Source: Rhodococcus aetherivorans
GTDB lineage: Bacteria; Actinomycetota; Actinomycetes; Mycobacteriales; Mycobacteriaceae
Direction of reading: 5' to 3'
Assembly: GCF_011058165.1 (NCBI RefSeq)
Contig: NZ_JAALEG010000004.1
Span: 1 to 64,000 of the forward strand
DNA: 64,000 bases
The first letter of the stretch is position 1; every line of letters starts with the position of its first letter. Shown piece after piece: positions 12,688-27,774 of this stretch. Below the pieces are notes generated by a model. The model made no database searches. It saw only the letters and a program-made list of their open reading frames with translations, and was not told where the DNA came from. The position numbers and the translations under genes are program-made.

Positions 12688-12702
12688 CGCCGTCGGCTGG
12701 TG

Positions 12703-12753
12703 GGCCGAATGTCACACCGGTGCGATGTGATCGACCCGATGTGACATTCGGCC
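12703..12753. terminator. Inverted repeat between phoH2 and the CMD-like gene
   Basis: GGCCGAATGTCACA (12703-12716) pairs with TGTGACATTCGGCC (12740-12753), a 14-bp stem with a 23-base loop, between converging genes. The loop contains GATGTGA, repeated at the right arm edge (GATGTGAC), so smaller alternative hairpins exist. A terminator is the simplest reading. Confidence 0.65.
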
Positions 12754-12772
12754 ACCGCCCCGCGCGAGCGGG

Positions 12773-13183
12773 TCAGTCCTGCGAGGGGCGCGGGCCGAGT
12801 TCGGCCTCGAGAACCTCCTGGACGACGCGCATCGCGGCCAGGCCGGCCGGGGCGCCGCAGTAGGCGCCCGCGTGGATGACCGCCTCGACGATCTCGGTGC
12901 GGGTCAGACCGTTTCGCAGGGCGCCGCGCACGTGCCCGCGCAGCTCGTTCTCCGCGCGCAGCGCGATCAGCATGCCCAGGTTGAGCAGGCTGCGGCTGCG
13001 ACGGTCGAGTCCCGGCCGGGTCCACACCGAGCCCCACACGTGCTCGGTGACGAACTCCTGCATCTCCTCGGAGTCGGTGCCGCGGGCGCGGTCGAAGGCC
13101 CGCTCGACGAAGTCGGCGCCCATCACCTCGCTGCGGACCTGAACTCCGGCCTCGAACGCGGGCGTCCGGTCGGCGTCGGTCAT
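12773..13183 (-). CDS. Carboxymuconolactone decarboxylase family protein
   Basis: This 136-aa protein spans the CMD fold: SRSLLNLGMLIALRAENELRGHVRGALRNGLTR (split over two helices) and EAVIHAGAYCGAPAGLAAM are the PcaC-type conserved segments, including the HxGxYCGxP loop of gamma-carboxymuconolactone decarboxylases. It could be true PcaC (protocatechuate pathway), but no pca genes are nearby, and related proteins are peroxidases (AhpD-like) that need a CxxC not seen here. It stands alone with ATG at 13183. Confidence 0.82.
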   Translation of the reverse strand: MTDADRTPAFEAGVQVRSEVMGADFVERAFDRARGTDSEEMQEFVTEHVWGSVWTRPGLDRRSRSLLNLGMLIALRAENELRGHVRGALRNGLTRTEIVEAVIHAGAYCGAPAGLAAMRVVQEVLEAELGPRPSQD

Positions 13184-13235
13184 CGTCGTGCTCCCTGCCT
13201 CGTCGCCGTCGAACGGTTCGGCGGCCGGGGAGATT

Positions 13236-13661
13236 CTACGACCGGCGCAGCACCGCCCGGAGCGCGCCGGCGCCCAGTGCGCCGACGATCGTGCCGACGT
13301 TGTAGTGGTCGTCCCACACCGCGATCTTCCCGTCGCGCAGTTCGAACGTGCCGCACACCCAGAACCGGGTGGAGACGGGGCCGAGGCGCAGGACGTCGGT
13401 GCGCTCGGTGAGCACCACGTTTCCGGTCGCGGCGATGTGATGGATGGTGACGTCGAAGCCCAGCGACGGCCGGCGCAGGCCCTCGAGGATGCGCCGCACG
13501 CGGGGCAGGCCCCGCACGGTCGGCAGCGACGTGTTGTGCCAGGCGATGTCCGGGTCGAGGAGGGCGACGGCGCGCTCGACGTCCTCGGCGACCATCGCGT
13601 CGAGGAACTCGCGGACGACGGCGACGGACTTCTCGTCCACGGAGGTGTGCGGCTCGGTCAT
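13236..13661 (-). CDS. Limonene-1,2-epoxide hydrolase-like (SnoaL/NTF2-fold) protein
   Basis: This 141-aa protein has the alpha+beta cone of the NTF2 superfamily. The pieces VLTERTDVLRLG and FELRDGKIAVWDDHYN align with the Arg-x-Asp and distal Asp that form the catalytic triad of limonene epoxide hydrolase, an enzyme first known from Rhodococcus erythropolis and with a mycobacterial homologue (EphG, Rv2740). Hydration of small epoxides is therefore possible; the substrate is unknown. Its ATG overlaps the stop of the upstream serine hydrolase gene by 4 bp, so the two are co-translated. Confidence 0.75.
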   Translation of the reverse strand: MTEPHTSVDEKSVAVVREFLDAMVAEDVERAVALLDPDIAWHNTSLPTVRGLPRVRRILEGLRRPSLGFDVTIHHIAATGNVVLTERTDVLRLGPVSTRFWVCGTFELRDGKIAVWDDHYNVGTIVGALGAGALRAVLRRS

Positions 13662-15268
13662 GACGCTCCTGTTCGGGTGAAGGTTCCCAGGCCGTTCTCG
13701 TTCCAGTACTCGAACGTGACGCCGTCGGGGGTGAAGGTGGCCGTGGAGATCGTCCCGTCCGGGGCGTTCTCACCGCCGTCGATCGGGAAGGTGAACACGT
13801 CGCCGTCCCAATGGTCGAGCCGGTAGGTCTGCCCGGCGGGACCGATGGTGAGCACCAGTGTGCCGGCGCGATCGTCGATCCGCGCGGGACCGTAGTACTC
13901 GCTGGTGTAGACGCCGGTGTACTGCCCGAGGGGGCGGGCCGGGGCCGGATTCGTGGGAGCGGGGCGTCCGACGAGCGAGCCCTTCGGGTCGTCGAACGAT
14001 GCGAACGCCTTCTCGTAGAGGGCGAACCAGTCCTCGCGGATCTCGCCGAACTGCACGAGATCGGCGAACTCGGCGGCGAGGGTCTCCGGCACGCCGATCG
14101 GGGCGGCGTTGGTGAGCGCGACGATCGCGACGTCCGCCGACGGCAGGGCCGTGAACGCGGTCGCGGCACCCAGCGAGAACGCCCCGGAATGGCTCAGCGT
14201 CACCCGCCCGGCCGGGCTCGTGCCCACATTGAACCCGTACCCGTAGAACCCCGCCCGGCTGTCGACGGTGCCCGGCGGGCTCGACACGGCCTGCGGGGAC
14301 ACCGCCGGCAGCAGGGCGTCCGCGTCGACGATGCGCCGGCCCTGGTACTCACCGTCGCCGAGCAGCATGGTCAGCCACCGCGCGACGTCGGTGACCGAGG
14401 CGCTCACCCCGCCGGCCGGGGACTGGGCGTCGGGATCGCGGACGGCGCGCGCGACGTAGTCGCCGTCGACGAGCTGATGACCCACGGCCCGGTTGGGCCG
14501 GGCCTCGTAGTCCTCGAATCGTGAACTGGTGGAGGTCATTCCGAGGGGTTCGTACAGCACCCGTGCCGACAGGTCCGCCCAGTCGGCCCCGGACGCGTCG
14601 GCCACCGCCTGCGCCGCGGCCGTGAGCCCGAAGTTGGTGTACTCGTAGGAATCCCGGAACGGCCCGAGCGGCAGCAGGCGGAACCGGTCGAACACCTGCT
14701 CGCGGTCGAAACCGAGATCCTCGAGCTCGTCGCCGGCGTGGTCGGGAAGCCCGGAGCGATGGGCGTAGAGATCGCCGACAGTCACGCGGCTCGTCACGTA
14801 CGGGTCCGCGAGGGCGAAGCCCGGCAGGCGTTCGATCACCGGGGTGTCCCAGCCGATCACGCCCTCGCCGACCTGGTGTGCGACGACGGTTGCGCCGAGC
14901 GGCTTCGACATCGACGCCAGCTGGAAGACGGTGTCGGCATCCACTGCGGCGTCGCGGCCGGCCTCGCGCACACCGAACCCCTTCGCGTACACGATCTCAC
15001 CGCGGTGCACGACCGCGACGGCCATCCCGGGGATGGCGGTCCGATCCATCAGTTCGCGTGCGAGGTCGTCGAGGCGGGCGACGGCGTCGTCGACCTGCCC
15101 GTCCGGGATGTCGACGCCGGCAACCTGCGGGGGAGTGAGCGACCGGGACTCCGGCGAGGCCGGTGCCGAGGACGTCGGGGAATCGGTGTCGACCGAGACG
15201 CACCCGGCCGACAGGGTCGCCACGAGGGCGAGGGCGGCGCCGATCCGGCGACGACGGGGTGCGCGCAT
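13658..15268 (-). CDS. Beta-lactamase-fold serine hydrolase lipoprotein
   Basis: This 536-aa protein begins with a basic stretch, hydrophobic helix and lipobox LSAGC (Cys23), so it is a secreted lipoprotein. The catalytic core shows SMSK (Ser119-Lys122), YTN (Tyr210-Asn212) and HSG (360-362), the three motifs of class C beta-lactamase/DD-peptidase/esterase EstB enzymes. The region after about residue 400 resembles the beta-barrel (DUF3471-like) domain found in the same family. It is likely an esterase or peptidase rather than a true beta-lactamase. It forms an operon with the epoxide-hydrolase-like gene. Confidence 0.88.
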   Translation of the reverse strand: MRAPRRRRIGAALALVATLSAGCVSVDTDSPTSSAPASPESRSLTPPQVAGVDIPDGQVDDAVARLDDLARELMDRTAIPGMAVAVVHRGEIVYAKGFGVREAGRDAAVDADTVFQLASMSKPLGATVVAHQVGEGVIGWDTPVIERLPGFALADPYVTSRVTVGDLYAHRSGLPDHAGDELEDLGFDREQVFDRFRLLPLGPFRDSYEYTNFGLTAAAQAVADASGADWADLSARVLYEPLGMTSTSSRFEDYEARPNRAVGHQLVDGDYVARAVRDPDAQSPAGGVSASVTDVARWLTMLLGDGEYQGRRIVDADALLPAVSPQAVSSPPGTVDSRAGFYGYGFNVGTSPAGRVTLSHSGAFSLGAATAFTALPSADVAIVALTNAAPIGVPETLAAEFADLVQFGEIREDWFALYEKAFASFDDPKGSLVGRPAPTNPAPARPLGQYTGVYTSEYYGPARIDDRAGTLVLTIGPAGQTYRLDHWDGDVFTFPIDGGENAPDGTISTATFTPDGVTFEYWNENGLGTFTRTGAS

Positions 15269-15594
15269 GTCACGGCCTTTCTCGTCCGTCGCATGGTAAG
15301 CCCTGCGTCCGTGGCGCGGAAGCGTTCTGTTCCGCGTCACGGGCGCCGGTGACGGCGACGGACGCCGGTCGCAGCCTCGTTCGCCGATCGTTGTCCGACT
15401 GTGACGAGGAGAGCGGTCCGGGACGGTCGAACCGCCGCACCGGGCGCGACCTGCGCCGATGCTGCGATCGCGGCGGGGCGCGGACGGGCACCGGCCGCGC
15501 GGTCCGGTCCGGCGCGAGGAAACCGCCGCACGGGACGGCACGGGATGGTTAGCGTCGAGGGGCCGGTGTTCGGATGCCAACGAGGAGTGATCCC
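15269..15594. other. 326-bp divergent intergenic region
   Basis: The region lies between the serine hydrolase (leftward) and LGFP lipoprotein (rightward). It contains a possible -10 TTAGCGT at about 15549-15555 for the rightward gene, and AACCGCCGCAC appears twice (about 15429 and 15520). No credible ORF was seen. Confidence 0.5.
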
Positions 15595-16185
15595 ATGAAT
15601 CGAATCCCGCGTCGTTCTGCCACTGTCGCCGCGGCCGTCGCCGCTGCAGGGCTGGTACTGGCCGGCTGCAGCAGCGACGACGGCACCACCGCAGAGGATG
15701 TGGTCGGCAGCGCCACGAGTGCAGCGCAGTCCGCGGTCGAGGGGGCAACGTCCGCCGCCCGGTCCGCGGTCGAAGACGCCACCGGAACCGGAGGCCCCAC
15801 GGAACCGGGCGCCTCCGTGGAGGAGACGACCACGCTGCCGGGTGCGGGCGGCGCCGAGTACACCATCAGCGGGCCGATTCTCGCGAAGTACAACGAGATC
15901 GGCGGGGCGAACAGCCCCCTCGGGGCGCCGACCGCGGATCAGCAGGACGTCGGCGACGGCTACATTGCGGAGTTCGAGGGCGGCATCATCGCCTGGAGTC
16001 CCGACACCGACTCGCACGTGGTGTGGGGCGAGATCCGCACCGCCTGGGAGGCCCAGGGCGGCGCGGAGGGTGAACTCGGCTTCCCGATCAGTGACGAGCG
16101 CCCGATCCCGAACGGCCTGGAGAGCGAGTTCGAGATGGGCACCATCACCTACGTCGCGGGTGCGACGCAGGTGATCCCGAAGTAA
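15595..16185 (+). CDS. LGFP-repeat lipoprotein
   Basis: This 196-aa protein has a lipoprotein signal peptide ending LVLAGC, a flexible Ala/Ser/Glu linker with repeated SA-AQSAVEGATSAARSAVE, and a C-terminal part with two LGFP repeats (SPLGAPTADQ and GELGFPISDE), each followed by aromatic FEGGIIAWS / FEMGTITY. LGFP repeats occur in surface proteins of mycolic-acid bacteria and are thought to anchor or bind the cell wall. ATG at 15595 follows GAGGAG at 7 bases. It ends against the quinone oxidoreductase gene. Confidence 0.88.
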   Translation: MNRIPRRSATVAAAVAAAGLVLAGCSSDDGTTAEDVVGSATSAAQSAVEGATSAARSAVEDATGTGGPTEPGASVEETTTLPGAGGAEYTISGPILAKYNEIGGANSPLGAPTADQQDVGDGYIAEFEGGIIAWSPDTDSHVVWGEIRTAWEAQGGAEGELGFPISDERPIPNGLESEFEMGTITYVAGATQVIPK

Positions 16186-16196
16186 CCCGTCCCGAT

Positions 16197-16214
16197 GTAG
16201 CCCGCGCCGGCTAC
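16197..16214. terminator. Weak convergent hairpin
   Basis: GTAGCC and GGCTAC form a 6-bp stem with a 6-base loop across the end of the converging oxidoreductase gene. Confidence 0.3.
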
Positions 16215-17194
16215 GGCTGGAACACGAGCCGGCCGACGGTGTGCCCGTCCCCGAGGCGGGCCACCCCGTCGGCGACGTCGTCGAGGGAGAGCCGCTCGCT
16301 GATCAGCGGCTTGATGGCGCCGTCGTCGGCGAGGCGGCACAGTTCCTCGTGGCACGCCTCGATCGCGGCACGGTTGTACTGCCGGTACAGGCCCCAGTGC
16401 AGGCCGATGATCGAGTAGTTCTTGATGAGCGCGTGGTTCAGCGCCGGTTGCGGGATGGTGCCCCCGGCGAACCCGATCACCAGGATGCGGCCCTCGAACG
16501 CGATGCACTTGGTGGAGCGGTTGTACGAGTCGCCGCCGACGGGGTCGTAGATCACGTCCGCGCCGCGGCCGGCGGTGACGTCCTTGACGACGTCGACGAA
16601 GTCCTCGCGGTGCCGGTCGACGACGACGTCGGCGCCGAGAGCCCGGCAGTAGTCGGCCTTCTCGGCGCCGCCGACGACACCGATCACGGTGGCCCCGGCG
16701 GCCTTGCCGAGTTGCACTGCGGCACTGCCGACCCCACCGGCGGCAGCGTGCACGAGCAGGGTCTCCCCGGCCCGCAACTGCGTACGGCGGTGCAGGGCGA
16801 ACCACGACGTCTGGTACCCGATCGACAGCGCCGAGGCCTCGGCGTCGTCGAGGGACGCCGGAGCGCGGTAGGCGTCCTCCTCCGGAACCACGGCGAGCTC
16901 GGCGAATCCGCCGAAGGGGAACTCGGGATTGCCGATGATCCGGTCGCCGACGGCGAAGCGGGTGACGCCCTCGCCGGCCGCGACGACGGTCCCGGCGAGT
17001 TCGACGCCCGGTGTGAAGGGCAGTTCCGGCTTCAGCTGGTACTGCCCGCGGCACAGCAGCACGTCGGGGAAGTTGGCCGGCGCCGCGGCGACGCGCACGA
17101 CGAGCCGTCCGGGCCCCGCCTCGGGGTCGGGGACGTCCATCAGCTGCAGCGCTTCCTTGGGCTCGCCCACTTCGTGAATTCGCCAGGCCTTCAT
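16211..17194 (-). CDS. Zinc-independent MDR family NAD(P)H:quinone oxidoreductase-like protein
   Basis: This 327-aa protein starts MKAWRIHEVGEPKEAL. It has the GroES-like N-domain (FTPGVELAGTVVAAGEGV) and Rossmann domain with AAAGGVGSAAVQLGKAAG (about 140-160). The structural and catalytic zinc Cys clusters of alcohol dehydrogenases are absent, placing it with QOR/enoyl reductases of the MDR family. It would use NADPH to reduce quinones or an activated double bond. It is the last gene of a leftward operon after an SDR and an acyl-CoA dehydrogenase, so an enoyl-CoA-type or carbonyl substrate of that pathway is plausible. Confidence 0.88.
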   Translation of the reverse strand: MKAWRIHEVGEPKEALQLMDVPDPEAGPGRLVVRVAAAPANFPDVLLCRGQYQLKPELPFTPGVELAGTVVAAGEGVTRFAVGDRIIGNPEFPFGGFAELAVVPEEDAYRAPASLDDAEASALSIGYQTSWFALHRRTQLRAGETLLVHAAAGGVGSAAVQLGKAAGATVIGVVGGAEKADYCRALGADVVVDRHREDFVDVVKDVTAGRGADVIYDPVGGDSYNRSTKCIAFEGRILVIGFAGGTIPQPALNHALIKNYSIIGLHWGLYRQYNRAAIEACHEELCRLADDGAIKPLISERLSLDDVADGVARLGDGHTVGRLVFQP

Positions 17195-17234
17195 AGGGTT
17201 ACCTTTCGCTCGAGTTCGGTGTGCGGAGGTGCGC

Positions 17235-18029
17235 TCAACGGGCGGCGACGCCGGCCTCGGCTGCGGCGGCGGTACCGAGCATCGCTCCACCGTCGACGAC
17301 GAGGGTCTCGCCGGTGATCCAGCTCGCCGCGTCGGAGGCGAGGAAGGCCACCGCCGAGGCGATGTCGGCCGGCTCGCCGATCCTGCCGAGCGGCAGGGCC
17401 GCGTCGAGCCGGTCCTCGTGGTCCTTCCACAGGGCCTCGGCCAGGCGGGTGCGCACGACGCCCGGGGCGACGGCGTTGACCCGCACCCGCGGCGCCAGCT
17501 CGAGGGCGAGCTGGCGGGTGAGGTGGATCAGCGCCGCCTTCGAGGCGTTGTAGAGGCCGATGTTCGCTTCGGGTGCCATCCCGCCGACGGAGGCGGTGTT
17601 GACGACCGCGCCCCCGTGCTCGCCCATCCACTCCCGCACGGCCAGGGAGGTCCACAGCACCGGACCCCACAGGTTGACGTCGAAGGTCTTGGCGAACCGG
17701 GCGTGGTCCTGGGCGATCACCGGGCCGAACGCGGGGTTGGTGCCGGCGTTGTTGACGAGGATGTCCAGGCGCCCGAACCGCTCGACGGTGAGTTCGACGC
17801 ACCGCCGGGCCGCGTCCTCGTCGACCGCGTGCGCGCCGACACCGAGTGCGGTGCCCCGCACCCCGGCCGCGGTGACCTGCGCGGCCGCGGCGTCGGCCGC
17901 GTCCTGCTTGCGGGAGGTGAGCACCACGTTCGCGCCGGCCGCCGCGAGGTCCCGGGCGACGGCCAGGCCGATACCGCGGGACGCCCCGGTGACGATCGCG
18001 GTGCGGCCGGTCAGATCGAGTCCGGTCAT
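17235..18029 (-). CDS. Short-chain dehydrogenase/reductase (FabG-like)
   Basis: This 264-aa classical SDR has the cofactor motif TGASRGIG (14-21), NNAG, and the catalytic Ser with YNASK. The Arg after TGAS and SRK later suggest NADP(H) or dual use. Sequence resembles 3-oxoacyl-ACP/CoA reductases, so a hydroxyacyl-CoA dehydrogenase role in the cluster is possible. Only 3 bp separate it from the acyl-CoA dehydrogenase, and 40 bp from the oxidoreductase, so all three are one transcription unit driven from the 19290-19458 region. Confidence 0.92.
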   Translation of the reverse strand: MTGLDLTGRTAIVTGASRGIGLAVARDLAAAGANVVLTSRKQDAADAAAAQVTAAGVRGTALGVGAHAVDEDAARRCVELTVERFGRLDILVNNAGTNPAFGPVIAQDHARFAKTFDVNLWGPVLWTSLAVREWMGEHGGAVVNTASVGGMAPEANIGLYNASKAALIHLTRQLALELAPRVRVNAVAPGVVRTRLAEALWKDHEDRLDAALPLGRIGEPADIASAVAFLASDAASWITGETLVVDGGAMLGTAAAAEAGVAAR

Positions 18030-18032
18030 GGG

Positions 18033-19289
18033 TCAGCCCACCGTCACCTTGTGGCCGTTGACCGACGGGGCGCCGGCGGGAGCGGTGCGGTACTTGCGCA
18101 GCTCGGCGACGGCGATGGAGCGCTTGTGCACCTCGTCGGGGCCGTCGGCGAGGCGCAGCGTGCGCATGTGTGCGTACATCATCGCGAGCGGGAAGTCGTC
18201 GGTGACGCCGCCGCCGCCGTGCACCTGGATGGCACGGTCGATGATCTTCAGCGCCATCGTCGGGGCGGCGACCTTGATGGCCGCGATCTCCATGCGTGCC
18301 TGCTTGTTGCCGACGGTGTCCATCAGGTGCGCCGCCTTCAGGGTGAGCAGCCGGGTCATCTCGATCTCGATGCGGGCCTCGGCGATCCAGTCCTGGATGT
18401 TGGCGCGCTCGCTGAGGGGCTGACCGAACGTCACCCGGCTCGACGCGCGCCGGCACAGGAGCTCGAGGGCCCGCTCGGCCATGCCGATGGCGCGCATGCA
18501 GTGGTGGATGCGGCCGGGTCCGAGCCGGGCCTGGCTGATCGCGAAGCCCTCGCCCTCGCCCGCGAGGACGTCCTTGCTCGGCACCCGCACGTTCTCGAAG
18601 GTGATCTCGGCGTGGCCCTCGCGGTCGGCGTACCCGAAGACCGGCAGGTTGCGCACCACTGTCACGCCGGGGGCGTCGATCGGGACGACCATCATCGACT
18701 GCTGGCGGTGCGGGGCGGCGGTGGGATCGGTCTTGCCCATCACGATGAGCACCTTGCAGTTCTTGTGCATCGCGTTGGAGGCGAACCACTTACGCCCGTT
18801 GAGGACGTACTCGTCGCCGTCCCGGACCATGGACAGCTCGATGTTGGTGGCGTCGGAGCTGGCGACGGCGGGTTCGGTCATCGCGAACGCCGAGGCCATC
18901 GTGCCCTCGAGCAGCGGGCGCAGGTACTTCTCCTTGTGCTCGTCGGTCCCGAAGAGGGTGAGCACCTCCATGTTGCCGGTGTCGGGGGCGTTGCAGTTGC
19001 ACGCCTCGGAGGCGATGTGGCTGCGGCCCATGATCTCGGCGAGGGGCGCGTACTCGAGGTTGGTCAGACCCGGGCCCCAGTCGGGGTGGGGGTGGAAGAG
19101 GTTCCACAGGCCACGCCGGCGGGCCTCGGCCTTGAGCTCCTCGAGGATCGGGGGCTGGAAGTGCGGGTCCCCGGAGGCGCGCATCTGCTCCTCGTACACC
19201 GCCTCGGCGGGGTAGACGTGCTCGTCCATGAAGGCGAGCAGGGTGTCGCGGTACTGCACGGTGCGCTCGGACATTTCGTAGACCGACAT
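18033..19289 (-). CDS. Acyl-CoA dehydrogenase, ACAD10/ACAD11-like
   Basis: This 418-aa flavoprotein has the complete ACAD fold: [17 protein letters not shown] and [10 protein letters not shown] for FAD contact, and [20 protein letters not shown] followed by [13 protein letters not shown] at the C-terminus. The stretch [14 protein letters not shown] is typical of the ACAD10/11 branch, which acts on 4-hydroxyacyl-CoA (after phosphorylation by a linked kinase domain in known cases); no kinase gene is seen here. Start ATG 19289 is preferred over GTG 19295 since AGGAG lies at 19295-19299. It is the first gene of the leftward operon. Confidence 0.9.
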
Positions 19290-19387
19290 GGTCACTCCTG
19301 GCGGAAGGGGGGCAGGGCTGGGATCGCCCGTCGTCGAAGGCGGTGCGTCGCGAAGAGGATGGTGACGGACGTCTCCCTCTCTGTATA

Positions 19388-19405
19388 GTTGAACGCGGTT
19401 TCAAC
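19388..19405. promoter_or_regulatory. Operator 1: GTTGAA-N6-TTCAAC inverted repeat
   Basis: GTTGAACGCGGTTTCAAC has 6-bp arms with a 6-base centre and contains the core TGAA-N6-TTCA. It sits between the divergent acyl-CoA dehydrogenase operon and the MaoC gene. The same core recurs at 21432-21445 and 24102-24117. Confidence 0.65.
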
Positions 19406-19458
19406 TTCAAGTTTTGATTCGGCGCGAGTCGTTCCGGCCGCGCGGAGAGGAAGCATCC

Positions 19459-19935
19459 ATGACCGACGACATCACCACTCTGCCCGTGCGTCCCACGGGC
19501 CTCGACGACCTCCAGGCCCTGGTGGGACGGGATATCGGGCCGACGGACTGGGTGCCGGTCACCCAGGAACTCGTGAACGCCTTCGCCGAGGTCACCGACG
19601 ACCACCAGTGGATCCACGTCGACCCCGAGCGCGCCGCGACGAGTCCTCTGGGCACGACGATCGCGCACGGTCTGCTCGTGCTCTCGCTGGGGCCGGGACT
19701 GTCCTACAAGCTCATGAGCTTCGACGGGTTCGCCCACGGGCTCAACTACGGCTACGACAAGGTGCGCTTCGTCTCGCCGCTGCCGGTGGGCTCCCGCATC
19801 CGGATGCGCATGCAGGTTCTCGGGGCCGAGGCCGCCGGCGGCGGCATCCAGATCCGGACGCTGCAGACGTTCGAGCGCGAGGGGCAGGAGAAGCCGGTCG
19901 CGGTGGCCGAGTCGCTCGCCCGCGTCGTCGCCTGA
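19459..19935 (+). CDS. MaoC-like (R)-specific enoyl-CoA hydratase
   Basis: This 158-aa hot-dog protein carries the hydratase-2 motif around Asp48 and His53 (TDDHQWIHVDPERA), then GTTIAHGLLVLSL, as in PhaJ and mycobacterial MaoC proteins. It would hydrate trans-2-enoyl-CoA to (R)-3-hydroxyacyl-CoA. ATG at 19459 follows AGAGG at 8 bases. It is transcribed divergently from the acyl-CoA dehydrogenase, which makes enoyl-CoA, and shares operator 1, so a consecutive step in one pathway is likely. Confidence 0.92.
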   Translation: MTDDITTLPVRPTGLDDLQALVGRDIGPTDWVPVTQELVNAFAEVTDDHQWIHVDPERAATSPLGTTIAHGLLVLSLGPGLSYKLMSFDGFAHGLNYGYDKVRFVSPLPVGSRIRMRMQVLGAEAAGGGIQIRTLQTFEREGQEKPVAVAESLARVVA

Positions 19936-19952
19936 GGGGTATACGGCAAAGA

Positions 19953-19992
19953 TGCTGCCGGCCTCCACGAGTGATCGTGGAGGCCGGCAGCA
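19953..19992. terminator. Bidirectional terminator between MaoC and MFS genes
   Basis: 18-bp perfect arms (19953-19970 and 19975-19992) with a 4-base loop GTGA, between converging genes. Confidence 0.9.
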
Positions 19993-20002
19993 CCCGTTCC
20001 GG

Positions 20003-21385
20003 TTACCGTGCGTGGGCGATGCCCGGGACGGCCTTCGGGTCGCGGCGCACCGCCGCGGGGTTGGTCTCCTTCAGCACCCACGCCGAGAACAGCGTGAGGG
20101 CGCCCATCAGGGCCACGAACACCGAGACCCACGTCGTCGTGCCGGTGTTGGCGATCAGGGCGGTCATGATGAACGGCGTGCCACCGCTGACGGTGACGGC
20201 GGCGAGCTGGTAGGCGAGCGACGCGCCCGAGAGCCGGACGTTCGGTTCGAAGAGCTCGCCCAGGTACGCCGCCAGTGGGCCGTACGTCATGGACTGGAAG
20301 ATCGAGCCGACCGTGACGGCCACCGCGAACAACACGAGATTCGCGGTGTTGACGAGCCAGAAGTAGGGGAAGGCCCACAGCACGAGCGCCGCTGCCCCGA
20401 TCATGATCATCGGCCGGCGGCCGACGCGGTCGGAGATCCACCCCGACCACAGGATGAACCCGAGACCCACCAGCGAGCTGGCCAGCGACACGGCCAGGAT
20501 CGAGTTGCGGTTCATGCCGAGTTCGGTGGTGCCGTAGCTCAGGACGCCGGCGATGCTGATGTAGAACAGCGAGTTCGTCGCGGCGAGCAGGCCGCAGCCC
20601 AGCAGGATCTTGCGCCAGTGGGTGCGGATCGCTTCGGCCAGCGGGGCCTGGACGACCTGCTGCTCGGGCCGGGTGGCTGCGACTTCGGCCTGCAGTTCCC
20701 GGAATTCGGGGGTGTCCTCCACCTTGGTCTGGATGTAGAGGACGACGGGGAACAGCGCCGCGCTGGCGAGGAACGGGATCCGCCAGCCCCAGTCGAGGAA
20801 CACCTCGTTCGGCATCGCGGCCGTCGCCGTCAGGAAGGCGACGTTGCCCAGGATGACGCCGCACGGCACACCCATCTGCCCGAACGTGCCGGCGAAGCCG
20901 CGCCGCTTGGGATCCGCGGACTCGGTGAGCAGCAGGACGATTCCGCCCCACTGTCCGCCGCAGGCGATGCCCTGCAGGAAGCGCAGCGTCACCAGGAGGA
21001 TGGGGGCGAGGACGCCGATGGAGGCGGCGGAGGGCAGGCAGCCGATGAGGAACGTCGCCAGGCCCATGAGCAGCAGGGAGACCACGACGACGGGTTTGCG
21101 GCCGTAGCGGTCACCGAAGTGGCCGGCTACGAGTCCGCCGATGGGACGGGCCACGAATCCGGCCCAGAAGGTGCTGAAGGACAACAGCGTTCCCATCAGG
21201 GGTGAGCTGTCGGGGAAGAACACGTGCGGGAAGACCAGCGCCGCGGCGGTGCCGTAGAGAAAGAAGTCGTACCACTCGATCGAGCTGCCGATGAGCCCGG
21301 CGGCGAGCAGCTTACGATGAGCGCGCGTGTGGTGCGACGTGCCGGCGGGCGCGATGCCGGTCGGACTCACGGATGACGATGTCAC
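20003..21385 (-). CDS. MFS transporter, metabolite:H+ symporter (MHS) family
   Basis: This 460-aa protein has twelve predicted helices and the MHS-type signatures SSIEWYDFFLYG in TM1, ARPIGGLVAGHFGDRYGRKP between TM2 and TM3, and RFLQGIACGGQWGG in TM4. The family (ShiA, ProP, KgtP, citrate carriers) imports carboxylates and zwitterions with protons. Next to an acyl-CoA ligase, the likely cargo is an organic acid. Start GTG 21385 has GGAGG 9 bases upstream. It is divergent from the ligase gene with operator 2 between them. Confidence 0.93.
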   Translation of the reverse strand: MTSSSVSPTGIAPAGTSHHTRAHRKLLAAGLIGSSIEWYDFFLYGTAAALVFPHVFFPDSSPLMGTLLSFSTFWAGFVARPIGGLVAGHFGDRYGRKPVVVVSLLLMGLATFLIGCLPSAASIGVLAPILLVTLRFLQGIACGGQWGGIVLLLTESADPKRRGFAGTFGQMGVPCGVILGNVAFLTATAAMPNEVFLDWGWRIPFLASAALFPVVLYIQTKVEDTPEFRELQAEVAATRPEQQVVQAPLAEAIRTHWRKILLGCGLLAATNSLFYISIAGVLSYGTTELGMNRNSILAVSLASSLVGLGFILWSGWISDRVGRRPMIMIGAAALVLWAFPYFWLVNTANLVLFAVAVTVGSIFQSMTYGPLAAYLGELFEPNVRLSGASLAYQLAAVTVSGGTPFIMTALIANTGTTTWVSVFVALMGALTLFSAWVLKETNPAAVRRDPKAVPGIAHAR

Positions 21386-21431
21386 AGATCAATTCCTCCG
21401 GTCGGACGGGCCGAGAAACAGCACTCAAACA

Positions 21432-21445
21432 TGAATTCGGGTTCA
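21432..21445. promoter_or_regulatory. Operator 2: TGAA-N6-TTCA
   Basis: TGAATTCGGGTTCA lies in the divergent region between the MFS transporter (start 21385) and acyl-CoA ligase (start 21537). Its spacing is identical to operators 1 and 3. Confidence 0.6.
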
Positions 21446-21536
21446 GGCTGTGGTGCTAGTCTGGGGCATCCGTCATGTGATGTCAATCACGAGCGGGCCT
21501 CCCCCCAAAATGTCACTCGACGAAGGGAAACCAGTC

Positions 21537-23054
21537 ATGGCCAGTGTTCTCGACCCCGTCCTCGCCCATGCGGACGCGGCGCCGGAACGCATCGCCCTGC
21601 GCACGCAGGACGGGCAGCGAAGCTATCGCCGGCTTCGCGACGACGCGCTGCGCTACGGCGCACTGCTCCGCGGTCGCGGCGTCACCACCGGCGACCGGGT
21701 GCTCCTGCTCGCCCCGTCGGTACCCGAATTCGTCTTGGCTTACCTGGGCATCCAGGCGGTCGGCGCCGTGGTGGTTCCGGTGAACACCATGTCCACCGCG
21801 GCCGAGCTGAGCTATACGCTCGGGGACTCGCGGGCCGTGCTCGCGATCGCCTGGCACGGCGCCTCCGCCTCGGTGGCCGAGGCCGCGGAGGGTCTCGGCG
21901 TGCCGTGGCTGCCGCTGGAGCCGGGCGCCGCGGTCGAGGAGGACCCCATCGACCCCGTCGACCGTGCCGACGGCGACATCGCGGCGGTGCTGTACACGTC
22001 GGGCACCACCGGCCGCCCCAAGGGGGCCCAGCTCACCGTCTCGAATCTGCTGTCCGCGGGCCGTATTTCGTGCACATTGTCCGGATCGGGACCCGAGGAC
22101 CGCGTGGGGACCGGATTGCCGCTGTTCCACATCTTCGGCCAGGCCTCGGTGATGATGTCGGCGTTCACCGCCGGATCCTCCCTGTCCCTGCTGTCCCCGT
22201 TCGACCCGGCGGCGATGCTCGATCTCGTGGTCCGGGATCGGCTGACGGTGGTGTGCGGGGTTCCGACCATGTGGAACGCGATGCTGCATGCCGAATCGCC
22301 CTACGGCCCGGCGGATTTCGAGGGGCTGCGGCTGGCGGTCTCGGGGGGAGCGTCGCTGCCGGGTGAGGTGGCCCGCGACTTCGGGCAGCGCTTCGGCTGC
22401 ACCATCCGGGAGGGCTACGGCCTGACGGAAACCACGGCCATGGCGACCTTCTCATGGGGGGACGTCCCGGCGCGCATCGGGTACAGCGGAACCGCGGCCC
22501 CGGACATCGAGGTCGAGGTCTACGGGCCGGACGGTGCCCCGTGCGGGCCCGGCGAGGTGGGGGAGGTGTTCGTCCGCGGACCCGTCGTCATGGCCGGCTA
22601 CTGGCAGCGCCCGGCCGACACCGCGGCCGTGCTCGACGAGCAGGGCTGGTTCCGCACCGGCGACCTCGGAGAGTTCGACGAGCAGGGCCGGTTGCGCATC
22701 GTCGACCGCGTCAAGGACCTCGTCATCCGCGGCGGCTACAACGTGTACCCCAGCGAGGTGGAGGAGGTGCTCTACGAGCATCCCGACGTCGTCGAGGCCG
22801 CCGTGGTGGGCGTCCCGGACCGGCACTACGGCGAGGAGATCGCCGCGGTGGTCGTGCTGCGCGACGGCGGCGGCGCCGACGCCGAGGACGTCGTGCGATG
22901 GTGCCGGGAGCGGTTGTCCGCCTACAAGGCACCCCGCATCGTCCGCTTCGTCGACGCACTGCCGAAGGGGGCGTCCGGGAAGATCCTCAAGCGGGCCATC
23001 GACCGGGACGAGTTGTCCCGGTTCGTCGTACGCCGCTCCGAGTCGGCGGTGTGA
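21537..23054 (+). CDS. AMP-forming acyl-CoA ligase (FadD/QsdC-like)
   Basis: This 505-aa ANL-superfamily ligase shows the phosphate loop YTSGTTGRPKGAQ, YGLTETT, WFRTGDLG, DRVKDLVIRGGYNVYPSEVEE and the C-terminal catalytic lysine in PKGASGKILKR. It would adenylate a carboxylic or hydroxy acid and transfer it to CoA. ATG at 21537 (SD GAAGGGA) is chosen over upstream ATGs at 21480 and 21510. In R. erythropolis a fatty acyl-CoA ligase (QsdC) follows the QsdA lactonase in gamma-lactone catabolism, and the next gene here is a lactonase-type enzyme. Confidence 0.93.
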   Translation: MASVLDPVLAHADAAPERIALRTQDGQRSYRRLRDDALRYGALLRGRGVTTGDRVLLLAPSVPEFVLAYLGIQAVGAVVVPVNTMSTAAELSYTLGDSRAVLAIAWHGASASVAEAAEGLGVPWLPLEPGAAVEEDPIDPVDRADGDIAAVLYTSGTTGRPKGAQLTVSNLLSAGRISCTLSGSGPEDRVGTGLPLFHIFGQASVMMSAFTAGSSLSLLSPFDPAAMLDLVVRDRLTVVCGVPTMWNAMLHAESPYGPADFEGLRLAVSGGASLPGEVARDFGQRFGCTIREGYGLTETTAMATFSWGDVPARIGYSGTAAPDIEVEVYGPDGAPCGPGEVGEVFVRGPVVMAGYWQRPADTAAVLDEQGWFRTGDLGEFDEQGRLRIVDRVKDLVIRGGYNVYPSEVEEVLYEHPDVVEAAVVGVPDRHYGEEIAAVVVLRDGGGADAEDVVRWCRERLSAYKAPRIVRFVDALPKGASGKILKRAIDRDELSRFVVRRSESAV

Positions 23055-23059
23055 TCCGC

Positions 23060-23098
23060 GCCGTCCGCTGCCGGGTGCCACACCCGGCAGCGGACGGC
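23060..23098. terminator. Bidirectional terminator between acyl-CoA ligase and lactonase-like gene
   Basis: 18-bp perfect arms (23060-23077 and 23081-23098) with a 3-base loop, between converging genes. Confidence 0.9.
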
Positions 23099-23105
23099 AC
23101 CCGAC

Positions 23106-24080
23106 TCAGTACGTGTCGCGGCGTTCGAAGATCTCGCGCGGGTTGTCGATCAGCATCCGGTCGATGTCCGCCTCGCTCACCCCGGCCTCCCGCAGGGCGG
23201 GCAGCACGTCGTTGTGCAGGTGCATGTAGCTCCACCGCGGCGTCTCCACGGCGAGCATCTTCGGATCGAGCCAGTCGTTGAGGGTGGCGTAGTCCTGCGA
23301 CAGCAGCATCCGGCCGGCATAGCCGCGCTCGACGAGGGTCGCGATGGTCTTCACCCGCTGCTCGAATCCGAGGTAGACGTCGACGCCGCAGCGGTCCATG
23401 CCGATGTACGACCCGGCGTCCATCAGCGACGTGAGGTAGCCGATGTCGTCGGAATCGCCGCTGTGGCCGACGATCACACGGGAGAGGTCGACACCCTCCT
23501 CGGTGAACAGGCGCTGCATCACCAGCCCCGACTCGGAGTGGGCGTGGGTGTGCACGGTGATCGGCACGCCGGTGCGGCGGTGGGCGACCGCCACGGCCCG
23601 GGCCGTGCGCTCGACGCCTGCGGTCAGGCCCGGGGCGTCGATGGCGCACTTGAGCATTCCGGCGCGCACTCCGGAATCGAGGATGCCCTCCTCGATGTCG
23701 CGGACGAAGAAGTCCACCAGGGGTTCCGGGCCACCGAACAGGGTGCCGGAACCGCGGTAGTGGAAGTAGTGCGGCAGGTCCATGTAGGTGTAGAGACCGG
23801 TCGCCACGACGATGTTCATGTCGGTGGCCTCGGCGACCCGCCGGATCAGGTCGATGTTGCGGCCCGTGCCGACCACGGTGAGGTCGACGAACGTGTCGAA
23901 GCCGGCCGCGTGCACCTCCCGGACGCGGTCGATCGCCTCCGCGACCGCCGCGTCGAGGTCGACGCCGATGTCCCAGTTGCCGTGCAGTTCGGGGGAGAGG
24001 ACGAACAGGTGCTCGTGCATCAACGTCCGGCCGAGGCTGCCGCTGTCGACGGTGCCGGTGACGGTGGGGACGGTGGTCAT
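23106..24080 (-). CDS. Phosphotriesterase-like lactonase (QsdA-type PLL)
   Basis: This 324-aa TIM-barrel hydrolase keeps all metal ligands of the phosphotriesterase family: His22 and His24 (LMHEHL), the carboxylated Lys144 (GMLKCAID), His177 (VHTHAH), His206 (VGHSGD) and Asp263 (LSQDYA). The segment GLYTYMDLPHYF, with a Tyr at residue 97, matches the lactonase-type (PLL) loop rather than true organophosphate hydrolases. It resembles QsdA of Rhodococcus erythropolis, which opens N-acylhomoserine lactones and gamma-lactones. A perfect 16-bp palindrome lies 22 bp upstream. Confidence 0.9.
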   Translation of the reverse strand: MTTVPTVTGTVDSGSLGRTLMHEHLFVLSPELHGNWDIGVDLDAAVAEAIDRVREVHAAGFDTFVDLTVVGTGRNIDLIRRVAEATDMNIVVATGLYTYMDLPHYFHYRGSGTLFGGPEPLVDFFVRDIEEGILDSGVRAGMLKCAIDAPGLTAGVERTARAVAVAHRRTGVPITVHTHAHSESGLVMQRLFTEEGVDLSRVIVGHSGDSDDIGYLTSLMDAGSYIGMDRCGVDVYLGFEQRVKTIATLVERGYAGRMLLSQDYATLNDWLDPKMLAVETPRWSYMHLHNDVLPALREAGVSEADIDRMLIDNPREIFERRDTY

Positions 24081-24101
24081 GGCGTCTCGCTTCCTGAAGA
24101 C

Positions 24102-24117
24102 CTGAATTGGAATTCAG
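24102..24117. promoter_or_regulatory. Operator 3: perfect palindrome CTGAATTGGAATTCAG
   Basis: The 16-bp palindrome contains TGAA-N6-TTCA and lies 22 bp upstream of the lactonase start (24080), where a repressor would block transcription initiation. Confidence 0.7.
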
Positions 24118-24175
24118 CTTCATATGAGACCACGATGAGACGCCTGTCACAAGACCCCACCGGCGTCGGGCGCAG

Positions 24176-25585
24176 TCAGCCCTGCGGCTCGACCCGCGTC
24201 ATCGCCAGCACGTCGAGCCGCCGGTCCAGCTCCTCCTCGCTCAGGCCGTCGCCGATCAGGCCCCGGTCGATCACCGCCTGCCGGATCGTCTTCTTCTCCC
24301 GCAGCGCCTCCTTCGCGACCGCGGCGGCCTCCTCGTATCCGATCGCCGAGTTCAGCGGCGTCACGATCGACGGCGACGACTCCGCCAGGGTGCGCAGGTG
24401 CTCGGTGTTCGCCACGAGACCGTCGACGCACCGCTCGGCGAACAGGCGCGAGACGTTGGCCAGCAGGCGCAACGACTCGAGCAGGTTGCGGGCCATCATC
24501 GGGATGTACACGTTGAGCTCGAACGCGCCCGCGGCGCCGCCCCACGCCACGGCCGCGTCGTTGCCCACGACCTGCGCCGCCACCTGGGTCACCGCCTCCG
24601 GCAGCACGGGGTTCACCTTGCCCGGCATGATCGAGCTGCCCGGCTGCAGGTCCGGCAGCTGGATCTCGGCGAGACCCGTCAACGGACCCGACCCCATCCA
24701 CCGGATGTCGTTGGCGATCTTCGTCAGCGAGACCGCGATGGTCCGCAGCGCCCCGGACGCCTCGACCAGGCCGTCGCGCGCGGCCTGCGCTTCGAAACTG
24801 TTCTTCGCCGGCGTCAGCGCCTCCACCCCGGTCGCGCGCACCAGTTCGGCGACGACGCGGGGGCCGAACCCCTCGGGGGCATTCAGGCCCGTGCCGACGG
24901 CGGTGCCGCCGATGGCCAGCTCGCCGAGCCGCGGCAGCGTCGCCTGCACCCGCTCGATGCCGGCCTCGATCTGCCGGGCGTAGCCCCCGAACTCCTGCCC
25001 GAGCGTGACCGGCACGGCATCCATCAGATGGGTCCGGCCGGACTTGACGACCCGCTTCCACTCCTCCGCCTTCGCGGCGAGGGACGCCCGCAGCTGGTCG
25101 AGGGCCGGGATGAGATCCTTCACCGCCGCCTCGGTGGCGGCGACGTGCGTCGCGGTGGGGAAGGTGTCGTTCGACGACTGCGACATGTTGACGTGATCGT
25201 TGGGATGCACCGTCACCCCGCGCTGCGCGGCGAGGCTCGCGATGACCTCGTTGGCGTTCATGTTCGAGCTCGTGCCCGAACCGGTCTGGAACACGTCGAT
25301 GGGGAACTGGTCGTCGTGCAGGCCCTCGGCGATCTCGGTAGCGGCGGCGACGATCGCGTCGGCCTTCTCCGCGTCGAGCAGGCCCAGGTCCTGGTTGACC
25401 CGGGCACACGCCGCCTTGAGCAGGCCCATCGCGCGGATCTGGGTGCGTTCGAGGCCGCGGCCGGAGATCGGGAAGTTCTCCACGGCCCGCTGGGTCTGAG
25501 CGCGCCACAGGGCGTCGGCCGGGACCCGGACCTCACCCATGGTGTCGTGTTCGATTCGGAACTGCTGCTCGGGATTTTCGGCCAT
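24176..25585 (-). CDS. fumC: Fumarate hydratase, class II
   Basis: This 469-aa enzyme interconverts fumarate and L-malate in the TCA cycle without iron-sulfur clusters. Signatures seen: [15 protein letters not shown], the catalytic His in [17 protein letters not shown], and the superfamily signature [11 protein letters not shown] with the mobile-loop Ser. The length matches Rv1098c. glpX lies just upstream in the same direction, as in M. tuberculosis, with an 84-bp gap. Confidence 0.97.
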
Positions 25586-25669
25586 GGCTTCACAGTAGGC
25601 GGCTCGCGCCGCAGGGGCGCCCCTTCGGACCGGCGGAGATCCGAAAGGACACCACGACCGCGAAGCGGG

Positions 25670-26707
25670 TCACGGCATGGGAGGAACGGCCCCCGCGACG
25701 CCGTGGAAATCGATCGACGTGAACTCGCTGAGCTTCTTCAGACGGTGGTACGCCTCGACCATCCGGACGGTGCCGGACTTGCTGCGCATCACGATCGACT
25801 GCGTCGTCGCGCCGCCGCCGTAGTAGCGGACACCCTTGACGAGTTCGCCGTCGGTGACGCCGGTCGCGCAGAAGAAGATGTTCTCGCCCTTGACCAGGTC
25901 CGTGGTGGTCAGCACGCGGCCCGGTTCGTGGCCCGCGTCGATCGCCTTCTGCCGCTCCGCGTCGTCCTTCGGCGCCAGCCGGCCCTGCAGCGCGCCACCC
26001 ATGCAGCGCATCGCGGCCGCGGCGATGATGCCCTCCGGGGTGCCGCCGATGCCGAGCAGCATGTCGACACCCGAACCCGGGCGCGCCGCGGCGATCGCGC
26101 CGGCGACGTCACCGTCGGAGATCAGGCGGATGCGCGCGCCGGTCGCGCGCACATCGCTGATGAGCTGCGCGTGCCGGGGACGGTCGAGGATCGTGACGGT
26201 GATGTCGGAGATCTCCGAGTGCTTCGCCTTCGCGACCCGGCTGATGTTCTCGGCGACGGGCGCGGTGATGTCGATGACGTCCGCGGCCTCCGGGCCGACG
26301 GCGATCTTGTCCATGTAGAACACGGCGGACGGGTCGAACATGGCGCCGCGCTCGGCGACGGCGAGCACCGCGATGGAGCCGGGCGCACCCTTCGCCATCA
26401 GGGTGGTGCCGTCGATCGGGTCGACCGCCACGTCGCACAGCGGACCGTCGCCGTTGCCGACCTCCTCGCCGTTGTAGAGCATGGGCGCCTCGTCCTTCTC
26501 GCCCTCACCGATCACGACGACGCCGCGCATCGACACCGAGCTGACCATGTGACGCATGGCGTCGACGGCGGCGCCGTCGCCGCCTTCCTTGTCACCGCGG
26601 CCGACCCAGCGGCCCGCAGCCATCGCCGCGGCCTCGGTGACACGCACCAGCTCGAGGGCGAGATTGCGGTCCGGGGCCTGGCGGCGGGTCGGGGTGCTGG
26701 CCGTCAT
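25670..26707 (-). CDS. glpX: Class II fructose-1,6-bisphosphatase
   Basis: This 345-aa GlpX protein has the metal-binding [18 protein letters not shown] and [12 protein letters not shown] motifs of the inositol-phosphatase fold, and [14 protein letters not shown] near the sugar-phosphate site. It supplies the only FBPase activity of gluconeogenesis in mycobacteria (Rv1099c). Transcribed with fumC; ATG at 26707. The divergent gap to the DUF4245 gene carries its promoter, which I could not define. Confidence 0.97.
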
Positions 26708-26885
26708 GGGCTACTGCCTCCTGATGCAGTCGGTCGGCGCGGACGCCGACGCGGGACGGCCGCCGAGGGGACAGCCGCCGGGTTCCGATGGTTTCGAGTG
26801 GTAATTCTCTCATCACCGCCCCGTCGGCGGGGCTCGGACCCGGCCACGTGCGGGTATCGGTGCGGACGGCTGTCAGACTGGAAGC

Positions 26886-27455
26886 GTGGCCTCCCAGAAA
26901 CCCCGCATTCTCCACGACACGCGCGACATGGCGTGGTCGCTGATCCCGCTTCTGCTGATCATGGTCGTCGTGGCCGCGATCGCCAGCCAATGCTCCTTCA
27001 GCCCCGGCGGCCCCACGGCGGGACCCGTGCCCAGCTTCGACGTCGACGCCGGCCTGAAGTACGACGCCCGCGAGCTGGACTTCCCGATCCGGCAGCCGAA
27101 GGTGCCCGAGGACTGGCAGGCCAACTCCGGCAGCCGCAGCATCATCACCGGCGAGCAGGGTGGCGATTCGAGCACCGTCGGATTCATCACCCCTGACGGC
27201 CGGTACGTGCGGTTCACCCAGTCGAATGCGGGGGAGGACGAGCTGGTGCGGTTCGTCGCCGGGGAGCCGCGCACCGCGACCGGGGCGCAGAGCCTCGCCG
27301 GCCGCGACTGGGTGGTCTACGGCGGCGAGGGCGTCGAACCGCTGTGGGTGTCCGACTTCGGCGACGTCCGGATCCTCATCGGCGGCTCCGGCGACGAGGC
27401 CGAGTTCCGCGAGCTGGCGACCGCCGCGGGTGCGGCCGAACCGCTGCAGCCCTAG
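26886..27455 (+). CDS. DUF4245 membrane-anchored protein
   Basis: This 189-aa protein has a short cytoplasmic start, one membrane helix (about 17-34, SLIPLLLIMVVVAAI) and an outside domain with DFPIRQPKVPEDWQ and SLAGRDWVVYGG, matching the DUF4245 family that sits next to glpX in mycolata (Rv1100). Function is unknown. The GTG at 26886 follows CAGACT at 26874-26879 by 6 bases, suggesting a leaderless transcript. It converges on xseB with a 12-bp gap. Confidence 0.88.
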   Translation: MASQKPRILHDTRDMAWSLIPLLLIMVVVAAIASQCSFSPGGPTAGPVPSFDVDAGLKYDARELDFPIRQPKVPEDWQANSGSRSIITGEQGGDSSTVGFITPDGRYVRFTQSNAGEDELVRFVAGEPRTATGAQSLAGRDWVVYGGEGVEPLWVSDFGDVRILIGGSGDEAEFRELATAAGAAEPLQP

Positions 27456-27467
27456 CAGCCGCTCCGC

Positions 27468-27764
27468 TCACTCCTCGTCGTCGTCGGCGTGCGACAGCGC
27501 GGTCTCCACACGCTGCCGGGCACCGGCGAGATGCTCCTCGCAGCGCCGCGCGAGCGCCTCGCCCCGTTCCCACAGCGCCAGCGAATCGTCCAGGTCCAAG
27601 CCACCCTGTTCGAGCATCTTGACCACGTTGACCAGTTCGTCGCGCGCACGCTCGTAGCCGAACTCCGCCACGTCGTCGTTCGGGCCGCTCGCGGAGGTGG
27701 TCTTCGGGCCGCTCGCGGCCGTGGTCTTCGGGCCGCTCGCGGCCGTGTCCTTCGTCTCGCTCAT
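27468..27764 (-). CDS. xseB: Exodeoxyribonuclease VII small subunit
   Basis: The conserved XseB core [45 protein letters not shown] (in three helices) occupies residues about 35-80 of 98. It binds XseA, which degrades single-stranded DNA. The first 30 residues are an extra low-complexity tail made of an ASGPKTTA-type octapeptide repeated three times, encoded by a 24-bp DNA repeat at 27679-27750 and unusual for XseB. Only 10 bp separate it from xseA upstream. Confidence 0.95.
27679..27750. repeat. 24-bp tandem repeat, three copies, inside xseB
   Basis: Units at 27679-27702, 27703-27726 and 27727-27750 begin TTCGGGCCGCTCGCGG and differ at only a few positions. The unit length keeps frame and encodes the octapeptide repeats at the XseB N-terminus. 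Confidence 0.9.
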
Positions 27765-27774
27765 CCGTTCCCCG

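Follow-up and report, generated by a model that had tools for sequence, protein, structure and literature searches.

Seven genes at positions 16,211 to 24,080 of a 64-kb stretch of the Rhodococcus aetherivorans genome (RefSeq assembly GCF_011058165.1, contig NZ_JAALEG010000004.1, positions 1 to 64,000; hereafter the window) probably form part of a gamma-lactone and 4-hydroxy-acid regulon, which seems to be the homolog of the extended qsd region in relatives and is scattered over at least three loci. We put the probability of this reading at roughly 0.68. It draws on the enzyme families, on catalytic and phosphate-clamp residues, on homologs that stand together in relatives, on sites common to the promoter regions, and on a kinase and a TetR homolog encoded in trans. 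The window opens contig C161, which is 158.9 kb long, and the genome comprises 6.43 Mb in 216 contigs.

An initial annotation, made from the sequence alone, had described seven gene products in five transcription units within 8 kb, and we find all seven genes at the stated place. All seven reading frames were confirmed by open reading frames (ORFs) and by Pfam matches well above the cut-offs; the five units are a grouping by gene strand only. The genes, including those for an acyl-CoA dehydrogenase (ACAD) and a phosphotriesterase-like lactonase (PLL), are as follows.

16211..17194, minus strand: MDR-superfamily oxidoreductase, quinone-oxidoreductase-like, third gene of the ACAD-SDR-MDR unit (Pfam; homologs)
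17235..18029, minus strand: SDR dehydrogenase (Pfam; homologs)
18033..19295, minus strand: ACAD of the ACAD10/11 and LvaC type (Pfam, PDB matches, clamp residues)
19459..19935, plus strand: MaoC-domain protein (Pfam; nearest solved relative Rv0130, 2c2i)
20003..21385, minus strand: MHS-like MFS transporter (best NCBIfam match TIGR00883, metabolite/H+ symporter, below its cut-off)
21537..23054, plus strand: acyl-CoA ligase of the AMP-binding family, for which upstream starts are possible (Pfam; homologs)
23106..24080, minus strand: PLL (Pfam PTE, 303 bits; metal ligands)

By family, the MaoC protein would be an (R)-enoyl-CoA hydratase. The seven genes and their flanks are collinear in R. ruber NBRC 15591, the nearest named relative, with protein identities of 94-98% and Ka/Ks values of 0.03-0.11 across the seven genes. 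This collinearity and the low Ka/Ks values argue that the gene block is not a chance assembly.

Homology to the extended qsd region

The closest parallel was found in genome G097. The TetR encoded beside its PLL (locus L264) matches QsdR (PDB 4za6) over 186 residues at E 2e-114, which identifies L264 as a qsd locus; the label of rhodococci for the genomes of our set g24 derives solely from this match. For six of the seven window genes, G097 encodes a homolog within about 20 kb of qsdA-qsdC (63-84% identity): MHS (77%), a second ligase (63%), MaoC (65%), ACAD (84%), SDR (75%) and MDR (73%). An APH-type kinase, a thiolase and a TetR 67% identical to one encoded on contig C216 of R. aetherivorans lie in the same stretch. 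The same layout is repeated in three related genomes. The window neighbourhood is thus homologous to the extended qsd region.

We then compared 13 related genomes. A PLL match occurs in 21 genomes of g24, of which ten were taken, and three more were included because their ACAD neighbourhood held a PLL; each was selected for its PLL or its close ACAD. Genes in these loci are simple ORF picks, and homologs and orthologs were called by identity and position, with trees built for PLL and ACAD. Ligase homologs (at least 52%) and ACAD homologs (at least 76%) each occurred in 12 of the 13 loci, the window ligase being nearest to the second ligase of the qsd-region genomes (62-64%). MaoC homologs (at least 58%) were present in 11 loci, SDR homologs (66-83%) in nine, several of them directly behind ACAD and ahead of the kinase, and MHS homologs (76-78%) near the PLL in eight. 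A kinase of at least 55% identity was found in nine of 13; in G154, G040 and G289 the compared sequence stops next to ACAD, so that these three are uninformative as to its absence. An SDR of the C216 type (at least 55%) accompanied 12 loci, and G181 held only PLL and TetR.

Outside Actinobacteria, PLL, ligase, SDR and ACAD (62%) are encoded on a single strand in two contigs from Blastocatellia. On the longer contig, genes for a beta-oxidation multienzyme and a thiolase precede the run, with a beta-lactamase-family gene in between. Both the homologs of six genes around qsdA-qsdC in G097 and the Blastocatellia runs bear out the earlier proposal of a lactone and hydroxy-acid pathway wider than qsd.

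The lactonase and the adjacent ligase

The PLL retains all six ligands of the binuclear metal site, i.e., the histidines H22 and H24 of the MHEH motif, K144, H177, H206 and D263, which are invariant in an alignment of eight sequences. It also carries the GLYTYMDLPHYF stretch, so that both the complete ligand set and the PLL-type loop of the initial annotation are present. The loop of the catalytic Asp reads SQDYATLNDW. Among the 35 PLL sequences compared, the residue before this Asp is His in 25 and Gln in 10, and a Cys three residues past it occurs in 33, the window and R. ruber sequences being those that lack it. The nearest solved structure is the phosphotriesterase homology protein 4if2, which we take to be mycobacterial, followed by 4rdy and 2vc5. 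Overall, the protein looks like a working lactonase, as judged from its residues, and it is not shown to be QsdA.

The R. ruber PLL is 96% identical, and no other relative above 60% was seen; among 301 genomes of the family, 99 have a match at E 1e-100 or better, and the next best identity is 58%. Within the genus, a match at E 1e-60 exists in 11 of 18 genomes, nine of these matches being 53-57% identical, and the closest PLL after R. ruber in public loci (the best 80 of at least 550) is 60% identical. Mycobacterial PLLs are 55-59% identical to that of the window; most of their neighbourhoods have just a ligase match (about 28-35%), SDR, MHS or MaoC matches occur here and there, and some neighbourhoods hold none of these.

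In a tree of 37 PLL sequences, the window PLL groups with that of R. ruber; the stem of this pair measures 0.48 and lies outside a clade of 20 sequences (support 95/87) that holds the PLLs of qsd loci. The tree therefore rules out the window PLL as a QsdA ortholog and places it in a separate lineage. Identity of the adjacent ligase with QsdC was also ruled out, as it is 63% identical to the second ligase of G097 versus 35-36% to QsdC. Direct equivalence with QsdA and QsdC, for which the initial annotation had suggested alignment and phylogeny, is not supported for either gene.

The divergence of the PLL bears on another explanation, in which the cluster serves the general degradation of short- or branched-chain acids, while the PLL either plays no part in it or hydrolyses some unrelated ester or phosphotriester. 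Genes for ACAD, SDR, MaoC, ligase and MHS proteins are common in acid-degradation clusters, which counts for this explanation, as does the lineage of the PLL. We also collected 25 neighbourhoods of the closest ACAD relatives (73-88% identity; L237-L261), 22 of which had no PLL within 10 kb. We nevertheless consider general acid degradation unlikely: the PLL gene has the palindrome of the other units described below, ligase and ACAD accompany the PLL in 12 of the 13 loci (chosen for PLL) and in the two Blastocatellia contigs, and the clamp residues of the ACAD point to 4-phosphoacyl substrates.

The acyl-CoA dehydrogenase and a kinase in trans

Among solved structures, the window ACAD is closest to ACAD11 (8v3u, 2wbi) and to 4hr3, at E values near 1e-129; the next group follows near 1e-44. 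When aligned to 8v3u and 2wbi, it keeps the Arg/His/Arg of the phosphate clamp and the catalytic Asp (LADGPDEVH). The pattern RLGPGR[IV]HH[CA]MR was retained in 43 of the 46 gathered ACADs, and the three exceptions were distant paralogs from R. aetherivorans itself. In mouse ACAD11, residues R626, H634 and R637 bind the 4-phosphate beside the catalytic D753, and changes to them stop or weaken the reaction (PMC12440821). These residues fit the window ACAD for a phosphorylated substrate, which leads us to expect a kinase.

Neither a kinase nor a regulator was seen among the ORFs of the 12-30 kb segment, and three APH kinase queries gave no match in the 64-kb window. The whole genome has 13 APH-family matches, and in five cases the neighbouring gene is another ACAD paralog (34-53% identity). 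Identities were computed for nine of the 13: the kinase on contig C202 is 75-81% identical to the kinases of the g24 loci, and the eight other APH genes are 26-42% identical. R. ruber has a kinase of the C202 type (94%). The C202 operon encodes, in order, an enoyl-CoA hydratase, the kinase, two ACADs and a QsdC-like ligase (48% identity), and its ACADs are homologous (80% and 73%) to the two ACADs behind the kinase in G097. The initial annotation had noted the kinase as missing, which holds for the 64 kb; the C202 gene supplies a close homolog of the clustered kinases elsewhere in the genome. Adjoining this operon (L310, 834-3728) are a CoA-transferase gene and another APH-type kinase gene, whose product is about 40-42% identical to the cluster kinases.

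In the 25 ACAD neighbourhoods, an APH kinase lay within 2 kb of ACAD in 14 and within 7 kb in 18, several with the order ACAD-SDR-kinase. On the ACAD tree, the window protein nests in a clade of 21 sequences (support 99/96), 15 of which are labelled kinase-linked, the label including four loci in which 3-7 kb separate kinase and ACAD.

Within its own genome, the window ACAD has its closest paralog (84%) on contig C20 (L039, 330-4846), after genes for an FMO-like monooxygenase and an alpha/beta-hydrolase, an arrangement reminiscent of a Baeyer-Villiger route via esters or lactones. This company favours an explanation in which the pathway serves delta- or larger lactones, formed from cyclic ketones by Baeyer-Villiger oxidation and yielding 5- or 6-hydroxy acids. 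We regard it as quite improbable, since published studies report ACAD10/11 and LvaA/LvaC chemistry for 4-hydroxyacyl-CoA (PMC12440821, PMC11342911) and a response to gamma-caprolactone of the qsd operon, whose neighbourhood is homologous (PMC6476934).

Operator-like sites and candidate regulators

Three operator-like palindromes were found in the cluster.

19390..19403, unstranded: TGAACGCGGTTTCA, between the divergent ACAD and MaoC genes, 95 bp before ACAD and 56 bp before MaoC
21432..21445, unstranded: TGAATTCGGGTTCA, between the divergent MHS and ligase genes
24103..24116, unstranded: TGAATTGGAATTCA, upstream of the PLL gene, 23 bp before it

They share the pattern TGAA-N6-TTCA, which has three exact matches in the 64 kb, one per promoter region; shuffled sequences gave a mean of 0.07, and none of 100 reached three. 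As the pattern was chosen after viewing the three intergenic regions, tests in other loci count more. The arms of all three sites are kept in R. ruber. Across the R. aetherivorans genome, 18 sites were counted against four for the reversed control, three of them in the window cluster. The 25 ACAD neighbourhoods contained 28 sites, distributed over 11 loci, against none for the reversed controls. A half-changed form, TGAA-N6-GTCA, was counted 40 times against four in the g24 loci, at least two of the 40 being counted twice in overlapping stretches. In L264, half-changed sites stand in the SDR/MaoC, ligase and MHS promoters, and L269 has one before the PLL as well. Upstream of the C202 kinase operon, TGAATCTGACGTCA lies within a longer inverted repeat 36 bp before the first gene, and R. 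ruber has an identical site.

Exact sites were also observed 46 bp (L117:9955, Nesterenkonia alkaliphila) and 67 bp (L078:1434, G200) before the matched PLL start, and this was met again in L270. Locus L177 (C144:28889-34148) has TGAA-N6-TTCA five times, including a tandem of three, among other acyl-CoA dehydrogenase genes and may represent another TetR regulon.

As to the protein that might bind these sites, none of the TetR_N matches listed for the genome lies on the window contig. With the L264 QsdR as query, no match was found at E 1e-10 in a search of the window. QsdR as local regulator was rejected on this result, and 4za6 was not among the PDB matches of a second candidate, the TetR encoded on contig C74.

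Two TetR proteins encoded elsewhere were compared. The C216 TetR shares 65% identity with that of the G325 cluster, its type (at least 53%) occurs in all 13 compared loci and, at a threshold of at least 45%, in 15 of the 25 ACAD neighbourhoods, and R. ruber has an exact TGAA-N6-TTCA between the C216-type TetR and the next SDR gene. The C74 TetR, next to what is presumably an AidB-like ACAD gene, has the site at its gene start in every one of the 18 genus genomes (L190-L207), with constant arms and a varying spacer. As sole candidate it was discarded, since its type occurs in none of the 13 compared loci versus all 13 for the C216 type. On present homology, the C216 TetR is probably the best candidate for a repressor acting on the TGAA-N6-TTCA sites. 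The regulator that the initial annotation found missing is indeed not seen near the cluster, and this TetR, homologous to those in related loci, offers a candidate in trans.

Proposed pathway and points against it

From the named enzyme families we infer the order of the steps, and we likewise infer the substrates, the operon structure, the binding regulator and the joint action of all parts. The MHS-like transporter would import the acid, and the PLL would open the lactone to the 4-hydroxy acid, which the ligase would convert to 4-hydroxyacyl-CoA. The APH-type kinase from C202 would phosphorylate the 4-hydroxyl, and the ACAD10/11-type enzyme would remove the phosphate to give the 2-enoyl-CoA. 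MaoC could then hydrate this product to the (R)-3-hydroxyacyl-CoA, which the SDR would oxidise, with thiolysis next; the MDR has no step in this scheme. Expression would probably be held by a TetR repressor through the sites in the three promoter regions. Both ends of the proposed route have a counterpart in the literature: induction of qsdA and qsdC was reported for gamma-caprolactone, which is 4-hydroxyhexanoate in its lactone form (PMC6476934), and 4-hydroxyhexanoyl-CoA, which would arise from this lactone, undergoes phosphorylation and processing by ACAD10 as well as by bacterial orthologs of LvaA/LvaC (PMC11342911).

Several observations weigh against the regulon proposed here. Because the PLL lies outside the QsdA clade and has an altered loop, its substrate may differ. 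ACAD homologs of at least 61% were found in only five of 80 PLL loci (the best 80 of at least 550, many of them short stretches), and MDR homologs (73-78%) in just five of the 13 compared loci. With regard to the sites, the genome-wide count in R. ruber was seven against six for the reversed control, three of the seven lying at the cluster. The exact palindrome is absent from the g24 qsd loci, and the half-changed form was not enriched in 79 PLL loci (18 against 16). The kinase operon has the half-changed form only, which is unenriched genome-wide (29 against 39 in R. aetherivorans; 22 against 27 in R. ruber). No site stands by the C216 TetR gene of R. aetherivorans, and the site at the start of the C74 gene in all 18 genomes means that C74 could be the binder or that several TetRs share the motif. 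Concerning the kinase, the linkage label changes 12 times on the ACAD tree, and 91 of 500 label shuffles were as low; the label does not cluster on the tree beyond chance. No kinase was present in the stretch compared around the C20 paralog or in the two Blastocatellia stretches, one of which is only 6 kb.

These kinase results, together with the lack of a kinase in the window, speak for a kinase-free chemistry, in which the ACAD would act directly on 4-hydroxyacyl-CoA or on ordinary acyl-CoA. Such a chemistry is opposed by the intact clamp residues, by the mostly kinase-linked clade in which the window ACAD nests, and by the C202 kinase with its conserved upstream site. We therefore give this explanation very little weight; as the leading one, it was set aside on the clamp residues and the kinase in trans. 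The suggestion of a possibly new chemistry in the initial annotation is not supported in view of the same two results, namely the intact clamp and the C202 kinase so similar to the clustered ones.

Neighbouring genes

The flanks kept in R. ruber include, on one side, genes that we take to encode a fumarase and GlpX. On the other side stand an LGFP-repeat protein, assigned by a domain match, and a presumably beta-lactamase-like gene; the PhoH-like label of a further flanking gene was likewise assigned by eye. Near the cluster, at 12773-13661, we observed carboxymuconolactone-decarboxylase-like and limonene-epoxide-hydrolase-like (LEH) genes, and weak LEH-type relatives (26-29%) also occur near the PLL in L269, L279 and L282. 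No Rfam match reached the gathering score in 12000-28000, and no tRNA was found in the window.

Relation to known systems and biological meaning

The cluster resembles the qsdR-qsdA-qsdC operon of Rhodococcus erythropolis in its PLL lactonase and acyl-CoA ligase, and the TetR control established for qsd is proposed here as well. It differs from qsd in that its PLL lies outside the QsdA clade, its adjacent ligase is not nearest to QsdC and the window has no QsdR match. The qsd cluster is described as these three genes plus a neighbouring fadR (PMC6262395, PMC6476934). Our survey of titles and abstracts, confined to open-access literature, yielded no recognisable description of a kinase or an ACAD10/11-type enzyme in the qsd region, and a term search of the main text of a study on R. 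ruber (PMC6498646) found neither qsdA nor phosphotriesterase.

The second known counterpart is the route of the lva operon of Pseudomonas putida and of mammalian ACAD10 and ACAD11, in which ligase, kinase and ACAD act on 4-hydroxyacyl-CoA via a 4-phospho intermediate (PMC12440821, PMC11342911). The clamp residues of the window ACAD are identical to those of the ACAD10/11-LvaC type. Compared with these systems, the window set adds a lactone hydrolase, a MaoC hydratase and an MHS-like transporter, and its kinase is unlinked to the ACAD.

It is possible, at odds somewhat short of even, that Actinobacteria share an undescribed gamma-lactone regulon, which would combine a quorum-quenching lactonase with the kinase and ACAD10/11 route under a dedicated TetR and an operator of the TGAA-N6-TTCA type. 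Feeding on lactones would then have signal degradation by QsdA as a side effect, and the window would be an example of the regulon still working in trans after the break-up of its cluster. In the qsd literature, as far as its available text extends, the fate of the hydroxy acid beyond QsdA and QsdC is not set out; the homologous neighbourhoods described here would supply a full route, one that matches the chemistry of levulinate use in P. putida and of mammalian ACAD10/11. The analysis names a kinase, two candidate regulators and a candidate operator for this route, and it suggests why quorum-quenching rhodococci grow well on gamma-caprolactone.

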